Part shown: positions 1,907-36,420 of the stretch, piece by piece | How positions within the stretch are numbered: the stretch's first letter is position 1 | Layout: each line of letters opens with the position of its first letter | Source: Gloeobacter morelensis MG652769 | GTDB lineage: Bacteria; Cyanobacteriota; Cyanobacteriia; Gloeobacterales; Gloeobacteraceae | DNA: 64,000 bases | Reading direction: 5' to 3' | Assembly: GCF_021018745.1 (NCBI RefSeq) | Contig: NZ_CP063846.1 | Coordinates: forward strand, 1 to 64,000 | Program-made: the position numbers and the translations under genes | Notes under the pieces: generated by a model | Databases searched by the model: none | What the model saw: only the letters and a program-made list of their open reading frames with translations | What the model was told of the DNA's origin: nothing

Positions 1907-3616
1907 ATGCGAATACCGAGTTTCGAGTTTCGATCCCTACGCAGCATCCAGTACGCCGCATGCGAGAAGGTCCCCCAACTCATGATCATCGCTGGACCGA
2001 ACGGCACGGGAAAAACGACCCTCCTTGAGGCGCTGCGATGGAGGGATGAGAACGGAAACGTCATCCACATCGGGCCGCATCGGGCGATGCGGCGTCAGAA
2101 TGTACAGCAGCGGCAACTGCTGGGGGAAGCGATCTCTTACCGGTCGATTGTGATGAGCGGGGGGGCACCCTCTATTGAGGGCATTCAAATCCTTGGTGGC
2201 AGTGAAGATCATCCAAATTACCTCAAACACGCCCTTTGTCAAATCGAGATGGACCGGCAACAGGCCATCACGCAACGATACGACCGCGATGGTGAAATCG
2301 CAGTCGGCAGCCTTCCGGATCCCTGGAAACCGCTGCGGGAGCTTACCCAAAATCTCCTTCCCCACCTACGATTTGCCAAAATCGATGCCAGCAACCGCAC
2401 TAATGTGCAATGCCTGTGGCAGGTTCAGAATTCCAGTACCCTCGTGGACCTGAACGACCTCAGCTCCGGGGAGAAATCCATCGTCCTGATGTTCTACCCA
2501 CTTATCGAACGGCAAACCCGCTCGATTCTCGCCGGGGTCGAGGACTCCCAAGCCACCCCGATGCCCGCAATCGCCGTGCTCATAGACGAACCAGAGCTGC
2601 ACCTCCACCCAAACCTACAATTGAAAGTGCTCGACTACCTCCGCGTGCTGTCCTCGGAGGAAGGCATGCAGGTGATAGTCGCCACGCATTCGCCGACCAT
2701 TGTCGAGCAGGCCAGTTTTGAGGAGCTCTTCCTCCTGCGCCCGGTGGAACTGGTCGAGCCCGAGGCCAACCAGCTCGTGCCGGTAGCGACGGACGAAGAG
2801 AAACTGCGTCTGCTACGCGAAGTGTTCGGCAACACGTCCAACATCACCGCCATGCAGCCGATCTTGGTGGTGGAAGGCACTGCGGACGCGCAGAGCGGCA
2901 AGGTGGTGCCAGACTGGAAGCTCTACAGAGCAATGCATCCGGGGTTTTTCGCTCTGACCCTCCTGGCCGGAGGAGGCAAGGGCGAGTGCAAGGCGCTCGT
3001 CCGATCCCTGAACGAATTTCTGCCCCAACTTTCAAATAAGCTCAAGGCGTTCGCGCTCTTGGACCGAGATGTAGAAGAGGCGAGCGGCAACGATTCGCTG
3101 AAACTTCTGCCGGTGTCGATGATCGAGAATTTGCTGCTCGACCCGGACTCCATTTGGGAGGCAATCCAGAGCGTGGCGGAGCGCACCGATCTGAGATCCG
3201 TTACTGATGTGGGCGCCAAACTGGATGCCATCCTCGACGCTCTTGAGGACACAGAAGTCGAGCGGCGGGCCATAGCAAGCCTGGGGATCGTCCACTTCCG
3301 CCCGAAAAAGCCTTTGGATGTTATCCCGGAGCAGGCGAGCAGGTTTAATACCGAGGTCAGAGAGCGCTTCGGGGTTGAGGCCGTGGAAAAGGCGAAAGCA
3401 GAAGCAAAAGCGCGGGTCGCCGCGCTGAAGCAGGAGCGCCGTCGCCGGGAGGATTTCCACGGAAAGACGGTGCTCGGCGAGTTTTTCAAAAACCACCTGC
3501 ACAGCACTCCACTGTCGAAGCTGGTCTTCACCTACGAGGCCGCCCGTTACGCGGGTCGCAGGCAGTCGGTGGCCACCTTCTTCGACGAATTGTTTAAGCA
3601 AATCTCTCAAACCTAG
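1907..3616 (+). CDS. AAA ATPase fused to TOPRIM/DUF4435 nuclease domain (PARIS-like, OLD-related)
   Basis: The 569-residue product carries an ABC/RecF-type ATPase: Walker A GPNGTGKTT at about 30-38, signature LSSGEKS near 185, Walker B VLIDEPELHLHP near 222 and switch His in ATHSP near 257. A second domain begins near 319 with VVEGTAD and has LLDRD near 384 and SMIENLLLDP near 405. Known biology: VEG plus LDRD mark TOPRIM nucleases, and the following 'ENxLLDP' is characteristic of DUF4435, the AriB domain of PARIS anti-phage defence, whose AriA partner is this kind of ATPase. Fused single-protein versions exist. The start at ATG 1907 (MRIPSFEF..) has GAGAAG six bases upstream and matches the usual N-terminus of the ATPase; an earlier ATG at 1814 would overlap the divergent small gene. 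Defence function is inference. Confidence 0.8.
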   Translation: MRIPSFEFRSLRSIQYAACEKVPQLMIIAGPNGTGKTTLLEALRWRDENGNVIHIGPHRAMRRQNVQQRQLLGEAISYRSIVMSGGAPSIEGIQILGGSEDHPNYLKHALCQIEMDRQQAITQRYDRDGEIAVGSLPDPWKPLRELTQNLLPHLRFAKIDASNRTNVQCLWQVQNSSTLVDLNDLSSGEKSIVLMFYPLIERQTRSILAGVEDSQATPMPAIAVLIDEPELHLHPNLQLKVLDYLRVLSSEEGMQVIVATHSPTIVEQASFEELFLLRPVELVEPEANQLVPVATDEEKLRLLREVFGNTSNITAMQPILVVEGTADAQSGKVVPDWKLYRAMHPGFFALTLLAGGGKGECKALVRSLNEFLPQLSNKLKAFALLDRDVEEASGNDSLKLLPVSMIENLLLDPDSIWEAIQSVAERTDLRSVTDVGAKLDAILDALEDTEVERRAIASLGIVHFRPKKPLDVIPEQASRFNTEVRERFGVEAVEKAKAEAKARVAALKQERRRREDFHGKTVLGEFFKNHLHSTPLSKLVFTYEAARYAGRRQSVATFFDELFKQISQT

Positions 3617-3641
3617 CGTCCTGGCCCACCAATGACCAGCA

Positions 3642-4169
3642 TTAGGAGTGTTTATGCTCCAGCAACATTTTTAGCTCGGTGAGCAAAGCCGGAACTTCTA
3701 CAAGTTGAACTCGCCCCAGTTCACAGAGGGATTTCCAGGGATCGTTCGAGTCGAGTTCGTCGCGAAGATCGCGGTCGGAACAGCCCAAACGAAAAAGCAG
3801 GAGCGAAAGTGATATCAGTCGACTTTCTACGGGCAATTTGTAAAGGGCACGGGCGAGTTCTTGGCTGATCTTGTAGTTGCGTATCCTCTCGTATTGCCGG
3901 AAATGCCTCGTCTCGGCGAGCAAAGACAATTTGTAGCAGGTTTTCGGAACTTTCCCGACGTCTTCCGCCCAATTAGTGAATAGGTCGTAGGTTTTTCCCA
4001 CCAAGCCTTTTTCTCTATTTTTTTCATTATCCAGATAGAACCAGTCGCAGTAGAGTTTGCGCCGTTTGATCTCAGAATAAGCCACAGCTGGGTCCTGCCA
4101 GTGCTTGCTATTGCTCAACTTTTCGAAATCTTGTCTGGACATGTCAGACGGCAATGGGTAAGTGTCCAT
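3642..4169 (-). CDS. Hypothetical protein, 175 residues, possible plasmid regulator
   Basis: The product is soluble and mostly helical, with a central Lys/Arg-rich part and a Leu-rich C-terminal third. Its organisation (FxxW..D.GK...CY..., then several helices, then LLFRLGCSDRDLRDELDS) loosely resembles the C-terminal half of the protein at 26688-27311, so the two may be distant relatives; this is inference. The start at 4169 (MDTYPLPS) is chosen because the longer frame upstream has foreign-looking composition. It converges with the ATPase gene (25-base gap) and lies downstream of umuC on the same strand. GC is low compared with neighbours. Confidence 0.5.
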   Translation of the reverse strand: MDTYPLPSDMSRQDFEKLSNSKHWQDPAVAYSEIKRRKLYCDWFYLDNEKNREKGLVGKTYDLFTNWAEDVGKVPKTCYKLSLLAETRHFRQYERIRNYKISQELARALYKLPVESRLISLSLLLFRLGCSDRDLRDELDSNDPWKSLCELGRVQLVEVPALLTELKMLLEHKHS

Positions 4170-4350
4170 CGGTATTGAACCCGAATCAAGAATGCAATTG
4201 CGAATGATTTTCGCACAGAACTTCCTGAGATTTCTCATTGAGAAAGAGAGAGCTACAAAAATCGGCACTCCCGAAGTGCAGCAGTTGCGGTCAGGTTGCC
4301 CGTTACGGTGCAACGAGCCCAACCACCTACGTCATGACATGCAAGTGAAC

Positions 4351-5637
4351 CTAAGCATGGACGATCGGCAGGTCGTTCCATTGAGTGGTCCACCTGGGAG
4401 AGAGGAAGGCCGCCCGCGTCCTCCACGGTTGCTCAGTTCCCTCGGCGGCGAAGCGGACGCTACCCCGGCCGAGTTCCCGGTTCATGCCGTCGATCACGCT
4501 CATCAACCTTGCGGGCTGCTGGTTCTTCGGGTCAAAGCCGGGATCGAACAGGCTCAGTTGAATCTCGTTCTCGTCGCAAAGATCCGCCAGCAGCACCCCA
4601 GCTTTGGCGAACGGCACCCCCTCCCGCCACAGAGCGTCGACCAGCTCCCGGGCGTGCCCCAGCAGCACCGGCGTGACGTTGCTGGCCGTGTCCAGTGCGC
4701 ACCTCGCCGACACCGACACTGGGTCGTCGCCGAATCGGCTGGAAGAAGCAAAAACGGCCATCGAGCCCGCCGCCAGGTGTTCCTTGCGCAACTTGCGGGC
4801 GGCGCGGGCCGCGAAACTAGCCACCGCCTCGCTCAGCCCCTGCCGGTCGCAAACCGGCCGGCCGAAAGAACGCGACACGCACGCCGACTTGCGCCGTGGG
4901 GCGGCGGTCTGCAGCGGCAGGCAGGGCAACCCGCGCAGTTCCAGCACCGTGCGCATGCCGACCACGCCCATCCGCTTCTTGACCCACAGGTCGGACAGAT
5001 CGCGCAGCTGCAGTGCGTTGGTCACTCCCGCGTCCTGCGCAAGAGCCTTCTCCCAGCGGCTCCCGATGCCCCAAACGTCCCCGACCGGTAGCTTTGTCAG
5101 TGCCGCTTCTTGGAGAACCCGGTTGCCCGTCAAGTCCATGACGCCTTCGAGCGCCGGCGTCTTCTTGGCCAGCCGGTTTGCTACTTTCGCGAGCGTCTTT
5201 GTCTCGGCAATGCCTATGCTGATGCCTACACCGGTCCACCGCTTCACCACACGGCGTATATGGCGGGCATGTGCATCTAACCGGTCGGCATCTATGTGCG
5301 AGAGGTCCAGAAAAGCCTCGTCGATGCTGTAGATCTCAATCCCAGGTGACAGCGTGCGCAGGGTGTCCATCACCCTTTTGCTGAGCGAACCGTAAAGCGT
5401 GTAGTTGCTGCTGAATACCCGCACCTTGTGCTCCTTGACCGTTTCGCGGACCCGAAAATAGGGCATGCCCTTGGCAAGACCCACCGCCTCGGCTTCTTCG
5501 GAAATCGACACGATCGAGCCGTCGTTGTTCGAAAGCACGATCACCGGCCTGTCCCAGATCCCCGGCACCGCCGCGCGCTCGCAGGCGACGTAGAACCGGT
5601 TGCAGTCGCAAAGTGCTATGGCCGTGATCTTGCCCAC
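4351..5637 (-). CDS. umuC: UmuC-like Y-family translesion DNA polymerase
   Basis: UmuC is the catalytic subunit of DNA polymerase V, which copies damaged DNA together with the cleaved form of UmuD. The 428 residues match the normal family length. Visible motifs: CDCNRFYVACE near residue 10 (first metal-binding Asp and steric gate), YSIDEAFLDLS near 102 (catalytic SIDE), GIAETKTLAKVANRLAK near 140, and the typical C-terminal SPRWTTQWNDLP. The start is GTG 5637, preceded by GAGGAGG. It follows umuD by 10 bases, forming an operon; plasmid-borne umuDC pairs are common. No confident SOS box was found upstream. Confidence 0.95.
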   Translation of the reverse strand: MGKITAIALCDCNRFYVACERAAVPGIWDRPVIVLSNNDGSIVSISEEAEAVGLAKGMPYFRVRETVKEHKVRVFSSNYTLYGSLSKRVMDTLRTLSPGIEIYSIDEAFLDLSHIDADRLDAHARHIRRVVKRWTGVGISIGIAETKTLAKVANRLAKKTPALEGVMDLTGNRVLQEAALTKLPVGDVWGIGSRWEKALAQDAGVTNALQLRDLSDLWVKKRMGVVGMRTVLELRGLPCLPLQTAAPRRKSACVSRSFGRPVCDRQGLSEAVASFAARAARKLRKEHLAAGSMAVFASSSRFGDDPVSVSARCALDTASNVTPVLLGHARELVDALWREGVPFAKAGVLLADLCDENEIQLSLFDPGFDPKNQQPARLMSVIDGMNRELGRGSVRFAAEGTEQPWRTRAAFLSPRWTTQWNDLPIVHA

Positions 5638-5647
5638 CGCGTCCTCC

Positions 5648-6112
5648 TCAGCGCAGCGGGCGGATGGCGTGGGTGGCCACCCCCCAGCAGACGATCTCCA
5701 GCCCGTCTTTGAGGGGCAACGGCAGGTAGAGAGGGTTGTCGGCCGCCAGCTCCGCCCCCCCTGGGTGAAGCCGCAGTCGCTTTACCAGCAGTTCGCCGTC
5801 GAGCGCCGCCACGAGCACGTCACCGTCTTCCGGTTCCAGCGACCGGTCCACCACCAGAAGATCCCTGTCCCAGATCGTCGGATTCATGCTCGCGCCGCTG
5901 ACCCGCACCAGAAAAGTAGCGACCGGATTTTCGATCAGATCGTCGAGGCAAAGGTCATCTTCGAGAAACTCGTCCGCCGGCGAGGGAAAGCCGCAGCTCG
6001 GCCTGGCGCCGAAAAAGCGGAAGGCCAACCCAGTGCCCCTGGACACCCGAAACACTCCGACGACTGCCACACCGAGATCCGACACCCCGCCAACCCCGCA
6101 CCGCATGTCCAA
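5648..6112 (-). CDS. umuD: UmuD-like self-cleaving S24 protein
   Basis: This is the regulatory partner of UmuC; RecA-stimulated self-cleavage activates it. The cleavage site Cys-Gly is visible at about residues 40-41 (SCGFPSP), the nucleophile Ser at about 75 (VSGASMNPT) and the general-base Lys at about 111 (GELLVKRL). The spacings of 35 and 36 residues are close to the 36 and 37 of E. coli UmuD. The N-terminus is about 15 residues longer than usual, so the true start may lie further downstream. First gene of the umuDC operon. Confidence 0.9.
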   Translation of the reverse strand: MDMRCGVGGVSDLGVAVVGVFRVSRGTGLAFRFFGARPSCGFPSPADEFLEDDLCLDDLIENPVATFLVRVSGASMNPTIWDRDLLVVDRSLEPEDGDVLVAALDGELLVKRLRLHPGGAELAADNPLYLPLPLKDGLEIVCWGVATHAIRPLR

Positions 6113-6188
6113 AGCTTACAGCGCACATGAATGTTTGTCCATGTTTTGGCGCTTCCGGACCCCGCGAGCACTCTGGCAAGTCGTTGAC

Positions 6189-6213
6189 AAAAAGGCCCCG
6201 CCGCGGCGGGGCC
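6189..6213 (-). terminator. GC-rich hairpin followed by T5 on the minus strand
   Basis: A 20-base perfect palindrome at 6194-6213 (GGCCCCGCCG and its mirror) is followed on the minus strand by five T. It lies upstream of umuD, isolating the umuDC operon from transcription arriving from the right. Confidence 0.6.
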
Positions 6214-6282
6214 GGAAATCCTTCTCTTTGCAAAGGGATTATCCCACAATTGGATAATTGCCGCAAGTTTACCTGTGGCCCC

Positions 6283-6311
6283 AAAAAAGACCCGGGTGGA
6301 AAACCCGGGTC
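6283..6311 (-). terminator. Rho-independent terminator on the minus strand
   Basis: The stem GACCCGGGT/ACCCGGGTC has a five-base loop and is followed on the minus strand by six T (6288-6283). It sits downstream of the small gene at 6501-6701 and is the first of two consecutive minus-strand terminators. Confidence 0.7.
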
Positions 6312-6500
6312 GCTCCCCTTCCTGTGGACAAGACAAAACGAACTGCTACTTCCCGGACAGGCGTCTCGAGTAAACGGCCCAGCCCTCAGCTTGCGCTACA
6401 GCGCGGGACTCGTGCCATATCATCGCCATCGCCGCCCCCGCACGCCGCATGCCGAGATCGAATCCTTGCACCGCATACAGTAGAAGCCGGTTGCCGGAGA

Positions 6501-6701
6501 TTACCGTTGCTTCTCCCTGTCGCCGTGCAGCTGGATTACACCGTCGATTTTGGATTCGGCCAACTCGACCGTCCGGCCATCGAAAAGTTCAAGGACTACA
6601 AAGCCATCGAAGGGGAAAATCAAAGTGCGCAGGAAGATCCAAGGCAGAGCCTTGAAAAAATAATCAATGACCTTGGTTGTCCAGTCCGATTGCATCAGCA
6701 T
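6501..6701 (-). CDS. Small hypothetical protein with a hydrophobic segment, 66 residues
   Basis: ATG 6701 has AGGAGG about 12 bases upstream. The product has a strongly hydrophobic central part (KALPWIFLRTLIFPFDGFVV), likely membrane-associated, followed by a beta-like tail (LELFDGRTVELAESKIDGVI). A proper terminator follows at 6283-6311, so it looks like a monocistronic gene. Family unknown. Confidence 0.55.
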   Translation of the reverse strand: MLMQSDWTTKVIDYFFKALPWIFLRTLIFPFDGFVVLELFDGRTVELAESKIDGVIQLHGDREKQR

Positions 6702-6763
6702 TGTGGTTAGAAACCTCCTGGGTCGTTGTAAATAGCTTTCCCACGCGAATCAGTACTGGACCT

Positions 6764-7005
6764 TGGTGGGACGCACCGGCGGCACCAGATCAGGCGTTCC
6801 AGGCTCGATTCGGGCAACAAACCCTGCCCGCCGTGGTTGAAATAGACGCGGCCGTCGAGATCCAGTTGAGCGCGCAACGCTTGAAGCATGGCAAACCCAC
6901 CTCTGCTCTGGCTGGCAGGATAGCGCATCCGGCCCGGCAGTCGCCGCCGGGCCGCAAACGCTCTGCGCTCAATTGCCCGAATCACTGGTGGGACGCACCG
7001 GCGGC
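6764..7005. repeat. 20-bp direct repeats bounding a 222-bp inserted segment
   Basis: The 20-mer TGGTGGGACGCACCGGCGGC is present at 6764-6783 and again at 6986-7005. Read on the minus strand, both copies encode ..PPVRPT, the C-terminal end of the exported protein at 6969-9017. After the distal copy the frame continues as KVQY and stops near 6751. The arrangement is that of a gene whose last codons were duplicated around an insertion. Confidence 0.75.
6785..6889 (-). pseudogene. N-terminal fragment of a probable class V aminotransferase
   Basis: Within the 222-bp insert, an ATG at 6889 opens a frame reading LRAQLDLDGRVYFNHGG and onward to LERLIW, where it runs into the direct repeat. 'YFN(Y/H)GGQG' near the N-terminus is typical of a cyanobacterial class V (NifS-like) aminotransferase family. 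Upstream in the insert is a hairpin (6931-6953, GGCCCGGC/GCCGGGCC) that could be the terminator of a gene originally lying before it. It looks like a scrap of chromosomal DNA. Identification rests on a short motif. Confidence 0.4.
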
Positions 7006-9017
7006 GGCACGACGTACTGGTTGTGGGCATTCATAAATTCCACCAGCTCGGTATAGTAATCGCCCCGGGGCCGGGGCAGCCGGTCGCCCTGCACGTTCGC
7101 TTCGATGTCCATGTCGCGGCTGCCCGTGTCGGAGACGTACCAGCCGTAATCGCGCAGCGCCCGCAGGATCTTCTTGGTGAGGGTATCGAGCTTCTTGCCG
7201 TTGGCGAGGACGAAATTGTCGATATCGGCGTTGGTCAGATCCGGATCCAACCGCACCAGCGCCCCGTAGGGCAGATACCCCTGGTTGAGGCCCTTGGCCT
7301 TGTCCGACTGGTAGCCGCCGTCCATGCCCCGGCCCGGATAGACCAAGGCCGCCATGATCCAGTCGGTCGGACCCATCAAGGCGTGGCCGATATCGGCATT
7401 GTCCAATAGTTCGCTGTCGTGCATCGTGCCGCCCACCCCGGTGATCTTCGCGGCGTTGTAGCCCCCCGCCTTGTCCCCGAGGTGCGGCAGCTGGTTGATG
7501 GGCTCGCCGTAGCGGCTGACCGTATCGCCGTCGTAGCTGCCGCAACCGGGGCGGTAGTGGTAGTACTCGGTCTCCCAGAAGCTGCCGTCCGATTCTTTAA
7601 AGACGTGGTGGACCACCGAGTCGTTGGAGTTGTCGGGGGTGACCGGGCCGTTGTTGGTGTTGCCCCCCGAGCGCACCGCCGGGTTGATCGCATCTTTGAG
7701 CCGGACGGTGCCGTCCCCGCGCGGACCGCCGCTGTAGGGATTGTAGTAGACGTCGGGGCAATCGCCGGTGGAACCGTCGCCGTCGCCCACCATCGCCTGG
7801 CGCACCGGGTCGGCGGGCTCGCCGTACATATGGCCGGTGCCGTTGGAGTCGTCGCTGTCGGTGGTGCCGAAGTTGATCTTCCGCCAGGGCTTGCCGTCTT
7901 TGAAGCGGGCTCTATCGATAAGCAGATGGGGCCATTCGGCCTTGCCGGGGACTTGCTTGTAGAAGTACGAATCGATCGACAGTGGCTTCAGGTACGGCGG
8001 CAACCCGTCACCCTGCATCTTGCTCGACCAGGTGGAGGGCTTCCAGGCGTCTATCTGGTCCTTGGTTTTTCTGAGGTCGTGACCGCTTCTGCGGTAGAAA
8101 TCGACCACCGCCTCGCGCAGGGCCAACTGGTCGCCCTCGGACTTGAACCAGGCGGTCTTCGGGTTTTCGTCGGCCTCCCAGCCGCCGCTCGAACTCGGCT
8201 TGCCGATGTAACCGACGATGTCCTCGGTGCTCACACCGTCCAGGTTGTCGGCGCTGGGGGTGTCGTAATCGCTCGACCACGACAGGCCGCCGCCGGAGGA
8301 AGCCGACGAGCCGACCACGAAGTCGAGAACCGTCGACCAGACACCCTTGCCACCGATTTGGGCAAGGGCCTGCAGCGTGTGGCTGCCTTCGGAGAGCCCC
8401 GCAACGGACCAGCCGTTGGCCGTGGTCGGGTTGGGGTTGCCCCCGAGCCACCAGGGACTGTAGTTTTCTTGCCAGACCTCCGAACCGTCGATGAAGAACT
8501 CCACTTTGGTTGCTGTTACGCTCGGCTTGGCCTCGACATAGATTTTGCTGCCGGCGTTCACTGTGGCACCGTCGACAAGACCCGCCAGGGAGACGGTGGC
8601 GGAGGAGGTGGAGCCGACCGTAAAGTCGAGCACCGAGGACGTATAAACGTTACTACCTTCGAACGCCTTCGCCTGGATGGTGTGGCTGCCGGAGGGGAGA
8701 CCGGACACCGAATAGCCGTTGCACTTGCCGTTGGAGTCGCCTCCGTGGCAATACGGCGCGACATATTCGGTGCGCAGCAATTTCCCATCTTGATAGAACT
8801 CGACTTTGTCTGCCGAGCCACCCGAGAGCTTCGCCTCGACGTAAATCACGGCGGAGGCGTCGAGAGCCGCACCGTCGGCCAGGCCCGACAGTGAAACGCT
8901 CAGAGCGGCCTCAACTCGTTCTGCAGGCAACAAAAGTACAACTGCAGAAATAGCCGCCGACATTAAAGCCTTCGTCTTAGTGGATTCATACACGGATCCA
9001 CCTTTGCGCACTATCAT
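6969..9017 (-). CDS. Exported protein with two Ig-like domains
   Basis: The 682-residue product has a signal peptide (MSAAISAVVLLLPAERVEA), then two repeats of about 95 residues (SVSLSGLADGAALDASAVIY.. and TVSLAGLVDGATVNAGSKIY..). Each contains 'VEA.....KVEFY.DG' and 'GSHT.QA.A', a bacterial Ig-like fold often found in surface or carbohydrate-related proteins. The remaining 430 residues contain Gly/Asn/Asp-rich segments with DxDG motifs; I do not recognise this domain. AAGGAG lies eight bases before ATG 9017. The C-terminus was changed by an insertion (see repeat at 6764-7005): the present end is PPPVRPTSDSGN, the presumed ancestral one PPVRPTKVQY. Confidence 0.65.
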   Translation of the reverse strand: MIVRKGGSVYESTKTKALMSAAISAVVLLLPAERVEAALSVSLSGLADGAALDASAVIYVEAKLSGGSADKVEFYQDGKLLRTEYVAPYCHGGDSNGKCNGYSVSGLPSGSHTIQAKAFEGSNVYTSSVLDFTVGSTSSATVSLAGLVDGATVNAGSKIYVEAKPSVTATKVEFFIDGSEVWQENYSPWWLGGNPNPTTANGWSVAGLSEGSHTLQALAQIGGKGVWSTVLDFVVGSSASSGGGLSWSSDYDTPSADNLDGVSTEDIVGYIGKPSSSGGWEADENPKTAWFKSEGDQLALREAVVDFYRRSGHDLRKTKDQIDAWKPSTWSSKMQGDGLPPYLKPLSIDSYFYKQVPGKAEWPHLLIDRARFKDGKPWRKINFGTTDSDDSNGTGHMYGEPADPVRQAMVGDGDGSTGDCPDVYYNPYSGGPRGDGTVRLKDAINPAVRSGGNTNNGPVTPDNSNDSVVHHVFKESDGSFWETEYYHYRPGCGSYDGDTVSRYGEPINQLPHLGDKAGGYNAAKITGVGGTMHDSELLDNADIGHALMGPTDWIMAALVYPGRGMDGGYQSDKAKGLNQGYLPYGALVRLDPDLTNADIDNFVLANGKKLDTLTKKILRALRDYGWYVSDTGSRDMDIEANVQGDRLPRPRGDYYTELVEFMNAHNQYVVPPPVRPTSDSGN

Positions 9018-28031: not shown

Positions 28032-31000
28032 TCAATGTTCGAACCCGGTACCTTTGGAATGCTTCAACGACGCCTTCCCCTCTACACGGTGCCCCATCTT
28101 GAGGAACCTGCTGACGTCGTCTGGGCATAGGCTGTTGCGAGCGACTTTGCCTTCGACAACCGAGAGGATCACCCCGCGCTGTGCGGCGTTGACCGTCAGG
28201 TTTATTACGTCGCCCCGCAGAACGTAGCGGTTTCCTTCATACAGCCTGCGGCCTCCATCGATCGGCCGACCCCTGGAGGCGAGGATTTTGCAGGCAGCCG
28301 CCACCACGTCCCTCTCAATTTTCGCGTGGGAGGCGAGATCGGCGTCCATCATGCGCAGCACCTTCTCGACGGGCGGCTTGCCGTCTTTGTGGCTTTTACC
28401 CACCCTCGCGATCATATCGAGGTAGGGTTTCTCCATTGCAGCCGCAGCCCGGTACCAATCTCGCAGCTTTGACAGGGTGTCTCCCGGGTCGGCCACACCG
28501 GGAGACTGTGAAAGGTATTCGCCCAAGCGGGGGTTGACTCGCTCGATCATCTCGTGGACAACGGCCATGGCGGGGACGGAGGGGACATCCGCGGGCGCAT
28601 CGACATTCGGAATCGATAGATCAGAGGCCGTCTGAGAACCGACCAGGACTTCCGGTCCCGTGGGGGTTTTGGTGAGCGAGACAGATGCTTGCGAATTCTC
28701 GGAAACGTAGGGAAATTCCGCTGCGAAGGCGGGGGTATCCGGCTCGCGCTGCACAGACTGAGGCGGGGTTTCCAAGTGATGACCATCGGCGGCACCAACG
28801 GTCGCGGGAACCACCGTCGGTGCCGTTGTGCCGATAACGGTCTGGGGCTCTACCAGCGATCGAACCGTTTCTTTGGAAGTCGCATGCGGCGCCAACCGGC
28901 TCGGGTCTTGTATGGCGTGGGGCGCGGAGGTGTCCGGGGGCACCTCGACTGCGGGCGAGGCATCGAGCCTGACGTCAGCAACTTGCATCTCGCCCTCTAG
29001 CTCGGGCGCGGCCTGCTCGATGCGATTCAACTGGGGCAAGTCGATCCCGAGCATGTCGCGGGCCGTGTCCCTGCCGTCGAACGCGGCCAGGCGCGTTCCC
29101 TTGCTGTAAAGGGTGTCCAGCACGGCGCCTATGTGTTCTTTGGGCACAGCCAGGACCATCTGATCCCCGCTGGAGACAAACTCGGCACCCGCCGAGCGCA
29201 GAAGGTCCGTGTCCAGGTAAAACTTGCTTCCAATGGATTTCGATTTGACCGTCTGCAGCACATACCCGCCGCCTGCATTGAATCGCCGATCGGCCTTGAG
29301 GGTCAAGGCAGCGTCGGGGTGCGACTTGGCCTGGCCCCGGCGGTGGGTTCGCTCGTCGACGAAGCGCAAAACGTCTGCCGGGGTGGGAAGGACGACGGGT
29401 TCGCGTTCAAGTTTCTCGAAAAAGTCGTACCCCTGGGGCGCAAGCACGCCCTGCCGAACATCGCCGCGGTGATCGGTGAAATTGACGAGTTTGCCGTGAA
29501 ATTTCTCGAAGGCGCGCAAGACATTGCCGGTGAAAAGCTGCCGCTCCTCGCGGTTCGCCCCTTGGCGCTGGTCGAACAGTTCCAGAACCGGGGTGCCCAC
29601 CAGATCCGTCTCGGCGCTTTCCAGCTGGAAGTCTTCTCCGGTGTTGATCTGGCTGAACGGCAAAACGATCTCCTTGGCGGGATCGGCAACAAGGATCGCC
29701 ATTCGCCAGTTACTTGGGAGCGCCGGATTTGCGCCTTCGTGGGGCGACGCCCAGACCTGATCGACGACGCCGTACATGAAGTTGCCCGATTTCGTCGTAA
29801 GCCGCACCCGCGTCCCGGTGGGAAAAGCACCCACCGTGTCGGTCACCCGCGCAAGATGGCGGGACAATTTGTCGCTGTATGCCTGGCGTTTCTTTTGCGG
29901 TAGGCTCGCGAGTTTGGCACGTTCGAACTCGGCCGTCCCCTCGCACAATTGCCCGATGAGCGAAGCGGCCCGGAGCACCGATACCCGCTCGCAATCTTCG
30001 AGGGCGGTGGTCTCAGCAAGCCCCACCGCCCCGGCCACGCGCCCTAACACCTCCGCTGAGGTCAAAGGTTTGCGCGTCGTCTTCGCGTCGATCACCTCCA
30101 GCGCGACACCGGAGGCGAACGGGCTGTCGATGCCCTCGATGGCCGGCACCACCTCCAACGTCCCGACGGTGCGCGCGTCGAGATCGAGCGTCTCGGCCTC
30201 CAGCACCGATTCGCCCAGGGCAGCCTGCCGCTCGACGTAGGCGTTGTACTCCGTCTCGATGAGGTCGTAGAGCTTTTCTTGTTCGGCGATAGGGAGCAAT
30301 GGGATGCGCCCGGTCACGCGCGCGATTGCGTTCTCGTCGTAGGGATTTTCCCCAGTTCCGAGGGGGTGGTCGAGCCTGGCGTGCAAATCGGGGTAACCGT
30401 CCATGAGTTCCTTGACCACCCTGTCCCCGTACTCGTTCATGAAGTCGGGCACGTCACGCACGGTGACGGCGGTGGTGCGCGCGGCGGTGGTGTTCGCATT
30501 GAGGCTCGCCATTTTCTTGGCCAGCACCGCCCCGGGCCTCTTCTCCGCCGGGATGTCCGCCATCAGCAGCGTGTAGTTCGGTGGTACCACCTGGCCGGTA
30601 CGGTGCACCCGGCCGAGCATTTGCATGAACACGTCGATGTTCCGTTCGGGTTGAGCCACGATGAGGTGCCTGCGGCGCTGGTCGGCCACCTCGCGGCTCG
30701 CGTGCAGGCTGATGCCTGTGCTGCCGCTGCGGTTGAGGATCACGCAGTCGAGATCACCCGCGTTATAGGCACGGACCGTTTCGATGTTGGCGGCTTTGCT
30801 GCACTCGTCCGCGCCGCGGCGGTCGTAATAGCCCCGGCCGCCGCTGTAACGCACGACGTCCTTGCGCCCGGTGATCTCGCCGACTTTGAAACCGGCCTCG
30901 GTCAGCCTCGACTTGATGTGATCGATGGGGCTGATGGGCATCGAGCCGAAGTCCGTCTCGCGGATCGTTTCTCGGATCGACTCGAAAAGCCTGACCGCGT

Positions 31001-33905
31001 AGGGACCGAGTTCGGAATCGGTCAACTGGCGGTACTCCTTTTTGCCGAAAGCGTCGCCCATGCAGATGTCCCGCGAACGCACCAGGTAGCGCTCCAGCAG
31101 CCCCCCGAAGTCCAAATCCATGCCATCGCCCGGGCGCAGGTCGTTCTGGTCGGCGTATTCGCCGATGAAACTGCCCATCGTGTTCGCGACGGCGACGAGG
31201 GGCTTTTGGGCGCGGCCGGTGGCCGGGTCAGGGTTGCGCAGCACCGCGATGGCATGGTCGGCAGTCGCCTCGGCTTTCAAACTCAAGAGCATCTGGTCGA
31301 TCAGGTTGTGCATGATCGCCGTGAAGTTGGTGCTGGTGCAACCGGCCTGGCCGATGGAATTGTCCCGGGCGATGGCCTTGGCCTCCGCTTTGAAGGATTG
31401 ATCCAGCTTGGACACACCGGACTCTTTGGCTCGGTCGAATTCGAGGATCGATCGCAAGATGCCAGCCACGTTCTCCGCGGTGGGACGATCGACGGGCACG
31501 GTGACGCACTCGAAGCTCACCCCCTCGAAACTGCGCTCGCGGCGCACGTACTGGCCCGACAGGGCGAGCATCGTCGCGAGGCCCTGCTGCATGGGGACGC
31601 TCCCCTTTTGGATAAGACCGACGAGCGCTTCCAAACTGCCGACCGCGTGGCGCATGTCGGTGCGGCTGTAGAGGGTCATCACCGAGGGGCTCTTCGCGTA
31701 GGTGGCTGACGAGTAAAGCACGCCCTGGGCAGAAGACACCAGTTCGCGGGCGAACTCCCCCCGGCTTTTTCCGGACGATTCGCCCTCCGGCCCGCCCGCT
31801 TCGTGCGCCTCATCGAGGATAAGCAGCGACCGGGGCGCCATCGCACGCAGGAAGTCCCGCCGCAGCGTGTCCTCGCCCTTGACGGTTTGCATCTGGGAAT
31901 AAGTCGTGAAGATCCCCTCGTAAGAACTCCCCAGGTTCCCCGTTTGAATGGCCTGCTGCATCTGCAGCTTGTGGTTGTCGGTGTCGGTTTTTAGGCGGGA
32001 ACCGTCCGGCATCGGCACATTCAGATTCGAATTGGTGGGGAAGGGTTTGAAGCCCTGCATCCCGACGGCGGCCAGATCCCTGCCCATGTCCGCGTACAGG
32101 TCGGGTTTGCAGGTCACAAACAGCGGAATCCGACCGGTGCGGTTAGCGTAGCGGATGATGGCGGCGGCGACGCGCCCCTTGCCGATGCCGGTCTGATCCC
32201 CGTTGATAGCCCCCAAGCCGTTGTCGATGGCGTCGATGGCCATGGCCGTGGCGTCCACCTGCTCCGCCGCGAGCGCCGAAAAAAGTTCGCCCTCGTCGCG
32301 GAACCCCAGTTTGTCGCGCACGTACTCGTCGAGCGGCCCGACGCGCCTTTCGAGTGCGTCGAGGGCCTTGGAGAACACCAGCTCCAGGTTGCGGGGGATG
32401 AGCGTGCCGATGGCTGGCCCGCGGCTTTTCGGGCGGTAGGGAACTTGCAGCGGGGCGCTTCCTTCGGACGGAGTGCCCGGATTTCGATCTTCCTGATTTT
32501 GCACGCTCATTCCTCCCCCGTGTAACTCATCGCCTGCAACCACTCTTCCAATTCCACCTCTGCCTCTGCCAGATACGTCGCGGGCTCCAGCGGGGCTTCT
32601 ATCGGCAGCCAGTCCATCACCCCCAGCAAGCGCAACCGCTCCCTGAGTTCGTAATTGTCCACTGTGAGCGCCCTCGCCACCGATGCGGGAGTCGGCTCCT
32701 GCCGGTCGATCTCCACCAGGTGAAACATCCGACCGGAAATCAGGTAGTGCCTCACCAGCGCCAGAGCGTCCTGGAAACTCCCTTGCGCCAGCAGCAGCTT
32801 CTGCACCCGATCCGACAGCAGCTCCATGTACTCCGTTTCCGTCCGCACCGGCAATCTCCCCTCCCGCAATTCCACCGCCGCGAGCAATTCCGCCTGCGAG
32901 TCCCCGAGGGGCGGCTCCCACATCCACGGGCCGGTCGCGCTCCCATCTTTGTTCATGCACCAACTCCTCAAGTTGTTCAAAACTGCCGTATACTCTGGGC
33001 ACAGCGGCGGCCGGCAACGGCCGCGAAGAAATCCCGCGCCCTTCGATGCGCACCACGTCGACCGGGTACCCGGTGCCTTGGCGGCCATAGACCCCGCGGG
33101 CGATCGAGTAATGATCCACGACGTTGTAGTTGTCGTAAAGGGTTTTGTAGAATGCCCTGGCCGACCGGGTGTGATACTTTTCGGAGCGACGCGATTCGTC
33201 CCCCAATTTGCCTCCCAGTATGAGCACCGCCCTTCCGCCGTCCCGCATCGCCGCAAGTGCCTTCAAAGCGATAGCATGATCGACTTCGAGGGTCGGATAA
33301 TAACCGGTGTCGAACGGACGACCCCCTGCAGATTCCGCCAGCCGCCCAAAAGGTGGGTTGGCGACGACGACATCGAATTTCTCCACGGGCACGAACGAAG
33401 TGGCGTCCTCTCCCGTCACCCTCCCCATCCCCTGCAAACGCAACTCCTCCGCTCGCAGGGGATTTAGTTCGTTCGCCCAGACCCGAAGCGGGTCAGCCAG
33501 CAGCAGCAGCGCGCCGTGCCCGGCGGTCGGTTCGTAAACGCTTTTTCCAGGCCCGACGCCCGCTTGCAGCCCGGCCAACAAGGCGAGGGGCACAGGTGTG
33601 CTGTACGCCTGCCGGGCGATCGAGGTACTGGTGCGGGTACCCAGGGTAGGTTGCCTGGCATACAGATCGCACATTTGCCGGTAAGCGTCCACGGAATCGG
33701 AGGCCCCAGTAACCAGCCCGCGCGCCACCCTGACAATGGCCTTCTCGCAAGCCTCTTCGATCATTTTTGCGGCCTCGGTGCCCCCCTGGACCGGCTGGCC
33801 TAGGACTTCGCCGGCCAGCGCCCGCGCCTCCACAACGCTCGCGAAACGGCGTCCCTTGAGTAGCTCCTGCGAAAACGCCTCGACGAGGGCGCCTTCGTCA
33901 TGCAC
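28032..33905 (-). CDS. N6-adenine methyltransferase plus Strawberry-notch-like helicase (DarB-like)
   Basis: A single open frame of 1957 codons. N-terminal half: methyltransferase with EPTAGHGALL near 125 (SAM-binding motif I) and NPPFG near 183 (catalytic NPPF). C-terminal half: helicase with TGIGKGR near 573 (Walker A), LILDEAHEAGG near 695 (DEAH) and MLGRVHRTGQ near 1098 (motif VI), in the form of Strawberry-notch ATPases; about 700 further residues are unassigned. Known relative: phage P1 DarB, a methyltransferase-helicase that protects injected DNA from restriction. Between the halves (32507-32956) the frame reads Gly/Ala/Arg-rich while another gene runs in the +1 frame. The helicase could also start on its own: ATG 32510 overlaps the stop of that inner gene (ATGA), and GTG 32504 has GGGGGAGG upstream. 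So the product may be one fused protein or two. GTG 33905 has GGAGG five bases before it. Confidence 0.8.
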   Translation of the reverse strand: MHDEGALVEAFSQELLKGRRFASVVEARALAGEVLGQPVQGGTEAAKMIEEACEKAIVRVARGLVTGASDSVDAYRQMCDLYARQPTLGTRTSTSIARQAYSTPVPLALLAGLQAGVGPGKSVYEPTAGHGALLLLADPLRVWANELNPLRAEELRLQGMGRVTGEDATSFVPVEKFDVVVANPPFGRLAESAGGRPFDTGYYPTLEVDHAIALKALAAMRDGGRAVLILGGKLGDESRRSEKYHTRSARAFYKTLYDNYNVVDHYSIARGVYGRQGTGYPVDVVRIEGRGISSRPLPAAAVPRVYGSFEQLEELVHEQRWERDRPVDVGAAPRGLAGGIARGGGIAGGEIAGADGNGVHGAAVGSGAEAAAGAREFPGRSGAGEALPDFRSDVSPGGDRPAGADSRIGGEGAHSGQLRTQGAVALAGGDGLAADRSPAGARDVSGRGRGGIGRVVAGDELHGGGMSVQNQEDRNPGTPSEGSAPLQVPYRPKSRGPAIGTLIPRNLELVFSKALDALERRVGPLDEYVRDKLGFRDEGELFSALAAEQVDATAMAIDAIDNGLGAINGDQTGIGKGRVAAAIIRYANRTGRIPLFVTCKPDLYADMGRDLAAVGMQGFKPFPTNSNLNVPMPDGSRLKTDTDNHKLQMQQAIQTGNLGSSYEGIFTTYSQMQTVKGEDTLRRDFLRAMAPRSLLILDEAHEAGGPEGESSGKSRGEFARELVSSAQGVLYSSATYAKSPSVMTLYSRTDMRHAVGSLEALVGLIQKGSVPMQQGLATMLALSGQYVRRERSFEGVSFECVTVPVDRPTAENVAGILRSILEFDRAKESGVSKLDQSFKAEAKAIARDNSIGQAGCTSTNFTAIMHNLIDQMLLSLKAEATADHAIAVLRNPDPATGRAQKPLVAVANTMGSFIGEYADQNDLRPGDGMDLDFGGLLERYLVRSRDICMGDAFGKKEYRQLTDSELGPYAVRLFESIRETIRETDFGSMPISPIDHIKSRLTEAGFKVGEITGRKDVVRYSGGRGYYDRRGADECSKAANIETVRAYNAGDLDCVILNRSGSTGISLHASREVADQRRRHLIVAQPERNIDVFMQMLGRVHRTGQVVPPNYTLLMADIPAEKRPGAVLAKKMASLNANTTAARTTAVTVRDVPDFMNEYGDRVVKELMDGYPDLHARLDHPLGTGENPYDENAIARVTGRIPLLPIAEQEKLYDLIETEYNAYVERQAALGESVLEAETLDLDARTVGTLEVVPAIEGIDSPFASGVALEVIDAKTTRKPLTSAEVLGRVAGAVGLAETTALEDCERVSVLRAASLIGQLCEGTAEFERAKLASLPQKKRQAYSDKLSRHLARVTDTVGAFPTGTRVRLTTKSGNFMYGVVDQVWASPHEGANPALPSNWRMAILVADPAKEIVLPFSQINTGEDFQLESAETDLVGTPVLELFDQRQGANREERQLFTGNVLRAFEKFHGKLVNFTDHRGDVRQGVLAPQGYDFFEKLEREPVVLPTPADVLRFVDERTHRRGQAKSHPDAALTLKADRRFNAGGGYVLQTVKSKSIGSKFYLDTDLLRSAGAEFVSSGDQMVLAVPKEHIGAVLDTLYSKGTRLAAFDGRDTARDMLGIDLPQLNRIEQAAPELEGEMQVADVRLDASPAVEVPPDTSAPHAIQDPSRLAPHATSKETVRSLVEPQTVIGTTAPTVVPATVGAADGHHLETPPQSVQREPDTPAFAAEFPYVSENSQASVSLTKTPTGPEVLVGSQTASDLSIPNVDAPADVPSVPAMAVVHEMIERVNPRLGEYLSQSPGVADPGDTLSKLRDWYRAAAAMEKPYLDMIARVGKSHKDGKPPVEKVLRMMDADLASHAKIERDVVAAACKILASRGRPIDGGRRLYEGNRYVLRGDVINLTVNAAQRGVILSVVEGKVARNSLCPDDVSRFLKMGHRVEGKASLKHSKGTGFEH
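32507..32956 (-). CDS. 149-residue protein nested in the methyltransferase-helicase frame
   Basis: It starts at ATG 32956, with GAGGAG seven bases upstream, and stops at 32507 where the helicase start overlaps (ATGA). The product has ordinary protein composition, with acidic helices (AELLAAVELREGRL, TVDNYELRERLRLLGVMDWL, TYLAEAEVELEEWLQAM), whereas the outer frame over the same bases is low-complexity. Codon positions thus point to this frame as the selected one. No family recognised; given its neighbours it may be an accessory of the antirestriction proteins. Confidence 0.65.
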   Translation of the reverse strand: MNKDGSATGPWMWEPPLGDSQAELLAAVELREGRLPVRTETEYMELLSDRVQKLLLAQGSFQDALALVRHYLISGRMFHLVEIDRQEPTPASVARALTVDNYELRERLRLLGVMDWLPIEAPLEPATYLAEAEVELEEWLQAMSYTGEE

Positions 33906-34179
33906 CGCAGCCTCCACGGCCTTCGACCCGGGAACGGACCGGGTCGGCGTAGAATCCTTGCAATTTGTCGATCAACACCGCGCTCTGGGTCTGCGAGTAC
34001 ACAACTTCGCCATCCCACAGCATCTCCAGAAGACCGGGGGGAGGGTCGATCGGCAACCAACCGACCCTGTCGGCTCCGGGTCTGTCGAACATATGCGCGA
34101 CGATCCGGCCATCGACGCGAATTTGAACCACCCGGGGTCGGCGCTGTGGCGCGGGCTCGCTTTGGCTTTGATCCGGCAT
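33898..34179 (-). CDS. Hypothetical protein, 93 residues
   Basis: ATG 34179 has GGAG seven bases upstream. The product is beta-rich with a clear central part (RVVQIRVDGRIVAHMFDRPG, GLLEMLWDGEVVYSQTQSAVL). Its stop overlaps the start of the methyltransferase gene, so they are co-translated. No family recognised. Confidence 0.6.
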   Translation of the reverse strand: MPDQSQSEPAPQRRPRVVQIRVDGRIVAHMFDRPGADRVGWLPIDPPPGLLEMLWDGEVVYSQTQSAVLIDKLQGFYADPVRSRVEGRGGCGA

Positions 34180-34263: not shown

Positions 34264-36420
34264 TCAAGGTTCGTATTCTGTACCCCGTTGGATGGCGTCG
34301 AAGGTGTCGTCGAAGTGTTTGCGCAATGCCCGCTCCCTCTCTATACCGGCGCTCCGAGCAGCTATCTTCTGAGCCTGGAGGCTGTGCGAGAGGATGGCGC
34401 GGACCTCTTCCGCGCGGTGCCCCGCTTTGAAGGCCATGGCCGCCAATTCCTTGTCGGTCGCTCTGCCGGCTCGGCGCCGCTTGAGCATCCGTAGGTATTT
34501 CTGATACAGCAATCGGCTCGCGTCTCCCTGCGGAGTCAGCGGCGTCGCAAGGAGGCCACCGCCTTCTCCACCCTCACGACCGAATTCGACAAGGTCTGCT
34601 GCTGCTTCTGCATCGGCAGTACGGCCATGTACCATATCAAACCCACGATGGCCGCGGTCTGCAGGGCCATCACCCCGCCCACTGCCCACGGGTTGAAAAT
34701 CCACTTGAGGGTCCGCCCCACGCTCTTCTGCTCCTCCACCTGCGCGGCCAGATCCGCTATCGGCTGATCGAGGTACTCGCGCGTTATCGCCAACTGCTTG
34801 GTCACCTGCTCGGACCACTTGGCTATCGACGCCTCGATCACTTTGCGGTTGGCCTCGCCCTGATCCTGGTTGGCCTTCACCTGCTTGCCCAGTTTCTCCG
34901 TCCAATCCTCCAGGCTGCCTTCGAACGATTTTTGCATCGATTCGGTCACCTTCCTCTGGAGATCGCTCCATTCTCCTATCGCCTGGTCCAGGCTCTGCTG
35001 GGTCTGGCGCATTTCTATCTCGGTGGCCAGGCGCTTGTGCTCGTCCGACAGACGATTCATCGCCGCTAACAGATTCACCAGTTCGTTCTGGCGCTGCTGG
35101 CCGATGAGCTTCAAAACCAAATCCGATTGGGCCTGGCGCTGATCGAAGGCGCCGATCATCTCCGCCACCCCCTTGAGGGAAGTGCGAACTGTCAGCAGCA
35201 GATCGCTGTGCGAAATCAATTTCTCCGTCTGTACAGTTTGAGAATTCTCCAACCTCCCCAGAAGCTCCGCCGTCTGCTTCACCCAATCCGGGATGTCGAG
35301 AAGGGGCGTCAGTTTCTCGATCGAACTTTCCGTTTGTGCTGACGACACTTCCTGGGCTTTGCCCAGCCGCTGTACCCCCTCCGACAGCTCCGCCAACCGC
35401 TCTTTGTGGATCCGCACCAGGGACGCCCGCAGCTCCTCGACCGAAGTCAGCAGGTCCGCCAGCATCGGCCGCCAATTTTCCGGCGGACTGTGCCCCTCCG
35501 GTTCCGGCCCGCTCCCGGGCTCCGGCTGGCGGTTTGCATGCCGGGGTCTGCCCAGCTGCTCCAGGCGCTCCTGAACCCTGTCGAGATCCGCACGGTTCAC
35601 CCCCGGGACTGGGTGCGCGGTCGTCGGGTTGTCGTTCGAGTTCATGGCTCACTCCAAGGTAATTTTTCAAACCGTTCAAAGTAAACGCTTTGCCCAGGGA
35701 CGCTCCCCGGACGGCCACCGGACAGTCTTTCAGCCTGTAGCTGATCCCACAGGCCCGCCCGTCCGGACCGAGGTGCGTCCGCACGTCCACCCCGCGCGAC
35801 GACAGGCGGCCCACCAATTCCCGGACCGTCATTGAACTGCGCGCCTCGGCCAAAACCGCATACTGCAAACGGGTTTTGTTGCTAACGGCGCCACGGGCGA
35901 GCATCTCGCGTTCTTCTTTTTGGGCGGTGCGCACGAGGGGCACCGCGTTGTTCACCGGCTGCAGCCCGAACTCCGCCTCTATTCGCCTGCAGGCCCGTTG
36001 CCCACGCCACCAGTCGTGGCGATCCGAGATCACCCCGCCGTCGAGCGCCACCCTGCAAGCGACGACGTGCAAGTGGGGGTGTTCTGTGTCCCGGTGGCGA
36101 ATGTACACGGCCTGGGTTTTGGCGAGATCGAATCCCATCAGTTCCAGGTACCGGTTCGCGATTTCCGCCATGCGGTCGTTTTCGGAGCACCTATCGTCCG
36201 CCAGCCGCTCCCCCGGCGGGAAAGCGATCGCGACGTGGTAAACGGGTTTGTGCAACGCCGGACGCAGACGGGCGCTGACGCGGAATTCGGCGGCGAGGGA
36301 TTCGGGATCGGTACCGGCCATCGACCCCCCCACGATCTCGGGCCGCTTTCGCTCCAGCAGCGCGTAGCGCAACACCGAGGCGAAGCCGCGCCCTTTAGAC
36401 TGCTTGGCGATCATCGGCAC
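34264..36420 (-). CDS. Conjugative relaxase with a nested gene
   Basis: The relaxase nicks one strand at oriT, becomes attached to it through a Tyr and leads it into the channel. The N-terminal domain (1-260) has HRDTEHPHLH at 109-118, the three-His metal motif of the Pfam Relaxase/MOBP group; Tyr19 (VLRYALLE) is the likely nucleophile. From about residue 260 to 630 the frame is Gly/Asp/Arg/Pro-rich and coincides with the nested gene 34536-35645. After that a normal helical C-terminus returns (LLYQKYLRMLKRRRAGRATD..), evidence that the outer frame really is read through. This recalls RSF1010 mobA, which contains mobB in another frame. Its start overlaps the end of the MobC-like gene. Confidence 0.85.
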   Translation of the reverse strand: MPMIAKQSKGRGFASVLRYALLERKRPEIVGGSMAGTDPESLAAEFRVSARLRPALHKPVYHVAIAFPPGERLADDRCSENDRMAEIANRYLELMGFDLAKTQAVYIRHRDTEHPHLHVVACRVALDGGVISDRHDWWRGQRACRRIEAEFGLQPVNNAVPLVRTAQKEEREMLARGAVSNKTRLQYAVLAEARSSMTVRELVGRLSSRGVDVRTHLGPDGRACGISYRLKDCPVAVRGASLGKAFTLNGLKNYLGVSHELERQPDDRAPSPGGEPCGSRQGSGAPGAAGQTPACKPPAGARERAGTGGAQSAGKLAADAGGPADFGRGAAGVPGADPQRAVGGAVGGGTAAGQSPGSVVSTNGKFDRETDAPSRHPGLGEADGGASGEVGEFSNCTDGEIDFAQRSAADSSHFPQGGGGDDRRLRSAPGPIGFGFEAHRPAAPERTGESVSGDESSVGRAQAPGHRDRNAPDPAEPGPGDRRMERSPEEGDRIDAKIVRRQPGGLDGETGQAGEGQPGSGRGQPQSDRGVDSQVVRAGDQAVGDNARVPRSADSGSGRAGGGAEERGADPQVDFQPVGSGRGDGPADRGHRGFDMVHGRTADAEAAADLVEFGREGGEGGGLLATPLTPQGDASRLLYQKYLRMLKRRRAGRATDKELAAMAFKAGHRAEEVRAILSHSLQAQKIAARSAGIERERALRKHFDDTFDAIQRGTEYEP
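34536..35645 (-). CDS. MobB-like coiled-coil membrane protein nested in the relaxase gene
   Basis: ATG 35645 has TTGGAG about seven bases upstream. The 369-residue product is a long coiled coil (e.g. HKERLAELSEGVQRLGKAQE, RLSDEHKRLATEIEMRQTQQ) with one membrane span near the end (VGGVMALQTAAIVGLIWYMA) and a short coiled tail. It is encoded entirely within the relaxase frame, shifted +1. In RSF1010 the similarly nested MobB is a membrane protein that stabilises the relaxosome and contacts the coupling protein; the same role is inferred here from position and topology, not from sequence identity. Confidence 0.75.
   Translation of the reverse strand: MNSNDNPTTAHPVPGVNRADLDRVQERLEQLGRPRHANRQPEPGSGPEPEGHSPPENWRPMLADLLTSVEELRASLVRIHKERLAELSEGVQRLGKAQEVSSAQTESSIEKLTPLLDIPDWVKQTAELLGRLENSQTVQTEKLISHSDLLLTVRTSLKGVAEMIGAFDQRQAQSDLVLKLIGQQRQNELVNLLAAMNRLSDEHKRLATEIEMRQTQQSLDQAIGEWSDLQRKVTESMQKSFEGSLEDWTEKLGKQVKANQDQGEANRKVIEASIAKWSEQVTKQLAITREYLDQPIADLAAQVEEQKSVGRTLKWIFNPWAVGGVMALQTAAIVGLIWYMAVLPMQKQQQTLSNSVVRVEKAVASLRRR

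Follow-up and report, generated by a model that had tools for sequence, protein, structure and literature searches.

Organization of the locus

The stretch of DNA analysed here, referred to as the window (64,000 nucleotides; positions 1 to 64,000 of contig NZ_CP063846.1, assembly GCF_021018745.1, from the cyanobacterium Gloeobacter morelensis MG652769), carries a long open reading frame (ORF) in which a methyltransferase and a helicase are joined by a linker, and this linker is overlapped by a small gene in the +1 frame. The two readings are called the outer ORF and the inner gene in the following. The window opens a contig of 172,328 bases in a 5.1-Mb genome of three contigs. The replicon is probably a Gloeobacter-type plasmid, the matches and sampled relatives being cyanobacterial. 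The locus comprises the following features:

28032–33905, minus strand: outer ORF, 1957 codons from GTG 33905, a fusion of methyltransferase, disordered linker and Strawberry-notch/SNF2 helicase
32973–33896, minus strand: N6-adenine methyltransferase module, residues ~8–315 (PADLOC mad2, E = 2.4e-12)
32964–32969, minus strand: GAGGAG, Shine-Dalgarno sequence of the inner gene, located within the outer coding sequence 7 nucleotides before ATG 32956
32507–32956, minus strand: inner nested gene, +1 frame, 149 residues, ATG 32956 to TGA 32507, an all-helical family by predicted fold; the same DNA encodes the disordered linker of the outer ORF
32511–32516, minus strand: GGAGGA just 5′ of ATG 32510 and GTG 32504, where the helicase alone might have a second start, with comparative support only in cyanobacterial/plasmid members
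28032–32510, minus strand: helicase part from ATG 32510, 1492 residues, with Walker A (GDQTGIGKGR) and DEAH motifs read by eye
28998–32447, minus strand: helicase region conserved among relatives, residues 22–1171 of 1492, 52% identical to its counterpart on Chroococcidiopsis sp. CCNUC1 plasmid pB

Judged by domain content, the outer ORF appears to be a DarB-like methylase–helicase dyad, featuring an N6-adenine methyltransferase and a C-terminal superfamily 2 (SF2) helicase of the SWI2/SNF2 type on one polypeptide. Two Pfam families, PF13871 (E = 7e-30) and PF13872 (E = 3e-19), match this same ORF above their cut-offs. The methyltransferase module matches PF02384 at E = 0.017, which is below the cut-off of that family, and contains the motifs EPTAGHG and NPPF as read by eye. 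Alignments obtained by tblastn begin at residues 7–11. The outer ORF starts about eight residues ahead of the methyltransferase match, leaving little space for an additional domain such as LPD36, which is expected N-terminal to the methyltransferase in DarB-like dyads (no search aimed at LPD36 was made). GTG 33905 is preceded by GGAGG; an alternative start at GTG 33917 would extend the ORF to 28032–33917 on the minus strand (1961 codons). No stop closes the methyltransferase reading frame ahead of the helicase. The linker in between is of low complexity and rich in G, A, R, S, and D, with 15.5% hydrophobic residues as compared to 35.6% in the inner frame. The TGA of the inner gene overlaps ATG 32510 at the helicase start. 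An original prediction, made from the sequence of the window alone, had described the frames and their coordinates, the GAGGAG and ATG, the TGA/ATG overlap, and the low-complexity linker, and this description was found accurate on re-inspection.

Relatives of the locus

Relatives were fetched from genome contigs, viral contigs, and 388 genomes of the class by alignment to the helicase N-terminus alone, so as to avoid selecting for the inner gene or for the fusion. Methyltransferase and helicase were found in one uninterrupted ORF at 152 distinct junctions; only Persicobacter (L017), Bacteroidales (L091), and a broken-looking locus (L078) carry both modules on one strand but not in one ORF. The fused relatives include proteobacterial genomes and viral contigs with outer ORFs of more than 3000 codons. 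A plasmid of Picosynechococcus PCC 7002 also holds a fused relative (H5). About 150 distinct relatives, drawn from cyanobacteria, from several groups of proteobacteria, and from a Bacteroides phage, display the same double-open arrangement at the same junction. Sequencing errors or compensating indels were rejected as its origin, the arrangement being present in ~150 distinct records. One relative (L254, G328:C1:6930000-6935500) does carry a natural frameshift within the overlap, which has placed most of the inner frame in the helicase frame.

In all five annotated nested members inspected (L013–L016 and L213), the small gene is absent from the annotation. In the Bacteroides phage BS-TP4, an unannotated +1 ORF of matching size and place lies inside a 16-kb coding sequence; its profile match is weak, and it is linked to the family by position. 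In a number of viral loci (L098, L099, L105, L111, L114, L134, and L165), the outer linker is longer and carries additional sequence of the outer frame between the nested gene and the helicase.

Evidence that the inner frame is a gene

At nearly all junctions, no stop interrupts the +1 frame along the linker, whereas the +2 frame averages 11.7 stops. When close relatives are compared pairwise, the third position of inner codons, equivalent to outer position 1, accounts for 56–62% of the differences within the overlap; for the neighbouring methyltransferase, outer position 3 accounts for 64%. Inner identity (40–95%) exceeds outer identity in every pair compared; the alignments were made by the inner protein and are biased towards the inner frame when identity is low, although close pairs retain the positional pattern. 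Codon usage in the window scores 0.17 for the inner frame, –0.40 for the outer frame, and 0.23 for the flank, a contrast between inner and outer readings that is weaker among viral members. A hidden Markov model (HMM) built from cyanobacterial-side sequences alone recovered 41 of the 46 long viral inner proteins at E < 1e-3, none of which had been used to build it. AlphaFold2, run with 72 sequences, returned a confident all-helical model (pLDDT, the predicted local distance difference test score, 86.6; pTM, the predicted template modelling score, 0.83). A short viral form of ~95 residues likewise has a confident predicted fold (pLDDT 92.8) and aligns by profile to the long form with 95% probability. 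The inner frame is thus under selection at the amino-acid level and, on the strength of substitution pattern, codon usage, and fold prediction, we would say that the inner protein is real.

A disordered linker poor in hydrophobic residues might contain few +1 stops and thereby yield a long +1 ORF as a by-product, with no gene being present. The composition of the outer linker (14% hydrophobic residues) does reduce the chance of +1 stops. A by-product would nevertheless not be expected to be kept as one family across plasmids and phages, to accumulate substitutions that follow the inner frame, to be more conserved than the outer frame in every compared pair, to share the codon usage of the flanking genes, or to give a confident predicted fold. 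Un-nested homologues (see below) refute this explanation unless their HMM matches, with E-values of 1e-24 to 1e-32 (5e-12 for L335), arose by chance. An origin as a by-product is therefore hardly credible.

Programmed +1 frameshifting constitutes another conceivable route into the inner frame and would produce a methyltransferase–inner fusion rather than an independent inner protein. Consistent with such a mechanism, the inner frame is the +1 frame and begins just past the methyltransferase domain, and in the window it is already open 25 codons 5′ of the inner ATG. In many members, however, the +1 frame opens only 0–5 codons before the Shine-Dalgarno-bearing inner ATG, and the un-nested homologues are conventional genes, each with a start of its own. 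Frameshifting is thus a most improbable alternative.

Database searches with the inner protein were largely empty. A tblastn search of plasmids with the 149-residue protein and a pattern scan of genome contigs gave no match, which is explained by the fast divergence of the inner family; the helicase-anchored collection and profile searches were needed for this reason. No match to the inner gene was found in Pfam, NCBIfam, PADLOC, PHROGs, or Rfam, and the 72 inner sequences gave only scattered weak matches against PHROG. Comparison with the PDB and with viral predicted structures was uninformative, with a best Foldseek E-value of about 1–2, VIA-align Z-scores below 2 for the long form, and at most Z 4.7 for the short form (CENP-N, root-mean-square deviation 3.0 over 62 residues). 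No prior report of this nested gene was found in the literature searched, an absence that does not amount to proof.

Evidence that the outer frame is maintained

Shuffling of synonymous codons within the inner genes predicts 2.5 outer stops per gene, yet none was observed in 149 genes. Among 62 mutually divergent representatives, zero outer stops contrast with the ~165 expected from synonymous reshuffling. For the window alone, the reshuffled inner gene contains 3.5 outer stops on average, and 1.3% of trials preserve an open outer frame. The fourfold sites within the inner frame coincide with outer first positions and change at 0.49–0.72 times the rate of fourfold sites in flanking genes at 70–97% inner identity, and at 0.89 times at 60–70% identity; a low rate is expected if the outer reading resists change too. 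The outer frame is hence also maintained across the overlap.

These results bear on the two models offered by the original prediction, the first of which, a genuine fusion with an overlapping gene, gains strong support from the 0 versus 165 outer stops, the frame shared by relatives, and the fourfold sites. According to the second model, three coupled genes encode methyltransferase, inner protein, and helicase, the open outer frame is a matter of chance, and the fusion is not made. Several features of the locus agree with it. Of 83 cyanobacterial/plasmid members, 63 possess an in-frame ATG where the helicase begins, as opposed to 18% of control windows, and in 23 of these 63 a Shine-Dalgarno sequence accompanies it; in the window, GGAGGA lies ahead of the ATG 32510 that the inner TGA overlaps; and Persicobacter L017 has both modules as separate genes. 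Against it stand the absence of outer stops, the finding that relatives sampled regardless of fusion have nearly all kept the two modules in the same frame, and the unstopped methyltransferase frame ahead of the helicase. Moreover, none of 54 viral members has an ATG at the helicase start, so that the helicase should be made there only within the fusion. As the sole explanation, three separate genes are rejected as very unlikely. What stands of this model is the separate helicase start, since the frequency of the ATG renders a second, independently initiated helicase plausible in cyanobacterial/plasmid members, including the window.

Un-nested homologues

The original prediction had proposed a search for homologues of the 149-residue protein as free-standing genes, and such genes do exist. 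The profile search detected the inner gene in 55 of 388 genomes. Five loci (L248, L249, L250, L251, and L252) carry free-standing inner-family genes with neither methyltransferase nor helicase nearby. In two further loci, L256 and L335 (the latter on Leptolyngbya boryana IU 594 plasmid p1), the inner homologue is a separate 166-residue gene immediately 5′ of the helicase; that of L335 is annotated as WP_017291918.1 and accompanies a permuted giant protein (1914–7787) with the helicase first and the methyltransferase at the other end. The un-nested homologues imply that the inner protein is independent of the overlap and that it keeps company with the helicase start. Together with codon usage, the un-nested copies suggest, with moderate confidence, that, in this lineage, the folded frame came first and the linker was overprinted on it.

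Two of the free-standing genes (L251, 3619–4209, and L252, ~2495–3136; G203 and G298, two cyanobacterial genomes of one genus) are located directly upstream of a ferritin-like/Dps-type gene. On Pseudomonas aeruginosa plasmid pPAC1.3a (L333), an annotated, helical-looking protein of 167 residues (2025–2528) is encoded in the +1 frame immediately ahead of a Strawberry-notch helicase, within an outer frame that is itself open. It has no profile match and was not counted as a member of the inner family; it may represent a parallel or a very distant relative.

Proposed mechanism and function

As to expression, initiation at GTG 33905 would yield the 1957-residue fusion of methyltransferase, tether, and helicase. 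Other ribosomes would start at ATG 32956, using the Shine-Dalgarno sequence embedded in the codons for the methyltransferase C-terminus, and would translate the +1 frame into the helical protein of 149 residues. On this and other cyanobacterial plasmids, ribosomes finishing the inner gene (here on ATG 32510) may in addition re-start to make the helicase alone. The outer reading would thus serve as a flexible linker that is kept open, the inner reading as a conserved folded protein. That one messenger RNA region yields at least two proteins, the fusion and an internally initiated inner protein, is very probably the best explanation of the data as a whole. Its parts differ in strength: the comparative evidence shows that both frames are maintained and that the inner protein forms one family with un-nested members, while we infer that initiation occurs internally and that the two products are made in a fixed ratio.

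Several points weigh against this explanation. Inner-protein HMMs match the +1 frame at ~149 of the 152 loci and match neither frames 0 and +2 nor decoys from the helicase body, but these models were built from most of the sequences searched. A Shine-Dalgarno sequence of at least 4 nucleotides precedes 93% of 146 homologous inner starts as compared to 12% of internal in-frame ATGs, the former figure being inflated by the choice of start codons according to the best Shine-Dalgarno sequence. The amino acids of the outer linker are poorly conserved, such that the need for the frame to stay open is better shown than any importance of its sequence, and the low fourfold rate could partly stem from recombination or from the mutation rate of the region. 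The fused homologues of Xanthomonas, Pseudomonas, Cupriavidus, Bordetella, and Vogesella plasmids and of an Acinetobacter phage, as well as P1 DarB, showed no comparable nested gene between their modules. Finally, function is assigned only through guilt by association.

With respect to function, the accompanying enzymes suggest modification of, or translocation on, DNA that enters the cell. The inner protein might act as a helicase partner within a DarB-like module whose task is to modify incoming DNA of plasmids or phages or to shield it from restriction, a guess that we would give an even chance. The lean towards a helicase partner derives from L256 and L335, where a separate inner gene lies directly 5′ of the helicase start and, in one case, the methyltransferase follows behind the helicase. 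With the dual coding unchanged, the inner protein could instead act elsewhere, as a specificity or regulatory subunit of the methyltransferase, an adaptor for packaging into virions, or an inhibitor of host restriction enzymes resembling P1 Ulx in role. The Dar proteins of phage P1, including the similar-sized Ulx encoded beside darB, act jointly against type I restriction (PMC12810830), and free-standing copies without either module would fit an independent activity. On the other hand, the inner gene of L335 and L256 stays beside the helicase, not the methyltransferase. Homology to Ulx, suggested by size and neighbourhood, was not supported by hhalign (probability 0.1 against PHROG 1629, an Ulx profile of only three closely related sequences). 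A target other than the helicase is accordingly a possible, if less favoured, explanation.

To our knowledge, long same-strand nested genes with both readings kept by selection have rarely been shown in bacteria and phages, and the ~150 distinct relatives constitute strong comparative evidence for double coding. We consider it somewhat likely that an unannotated folded family is encoded inside the methyltransferase–helicase tether almost wherever this clade was sampled, be it on cyanobacterial plasmids, on viral contigs, or in a Bacteroides phage; that double coding is an ancient arrangement, favoured by selection, by which one compact transcript delivers the enzyme together with a partner for its helicase; and that a core component of a widespread DNA-entry/anti-restriction module has been missed because gene callers avoid nested ORFs. 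The inner protein adds a new family to a module associated with DNA entry and anti-restriction and supplies a concrete missing component to those who wish to reconstitute the DarB-like enzymes of the clade. The inner gene would come along unnoticed in a cloned fusion, whereas codon optimisation of the fusion would destroy it; the un-nested versions allow the two products to be tested separately.

The relaxase neighbour and comparison with known systems

A second nested arrangement is found next to the outer ORF:

34264–36420, minus strand: MobA/VirD2-type relaxase ORF (Pfam Relaxase PF03432, E = 2e-28)
34536–35645, minus strand: relaxase-nested ORF in another frame, 369 residues, coiled-coil-like, with a hydrophobic stretch near the C-terminus

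The C-terminal part of the relaxase is of low complexity in its own frame where the 369-residue ORF nests. This arrangement resembles a known kind, the nesting of mobB inside mobA/repB in RSF1010 (PMC2200642). No shared new principle is therefore needed, and the common organising principle that the original prediction had suspected behind both operons can be dispensed with. The mobB-in-mobA pair resembles the methyltransferase–helicase locus in that a larger gene of a mobile element accommodates a small one in another frame; the proteins are different ones, unconnected to the methyltransferase–helicase.

Closer parallels are provided by the DarB-like methylase–helicase dyads of polyvalent proteins, with phage P1 DarB as the archetype, for which modification of and translocation on incoming DNA have been proposed (PMC5512222). 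The outer ORF shares with them the fusion of an N6-adenine methyltransferase to an SF2 SWI2/SNF2 helicase and the occurrence on plasmids and phages, its viral relatives being giant multidomain ORFs. In contrast to P1 DarB and the plasmid and Acinetobacter phage homologues named above, the clade of the window harbors a conserved +1 gene in the linker; a text search of PMC5512222 for an overlapping gene found no mention of one. P1 Ulx (PHROG 1629) is likewise small (~146 residues), encoded next to darB, and works with DarB, but it is a separate downstream gene that is not nested and has no detectable homology to the inner family. In overprinted genes of viruses (reviewed in PMC8227390), too, a single DNA segment is read in two frames to give two proteins. 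Unlike these, the present pair resides on plasmids and, judged by contig source, in phages of bacteria, and its folded frame also occurs un-nested.

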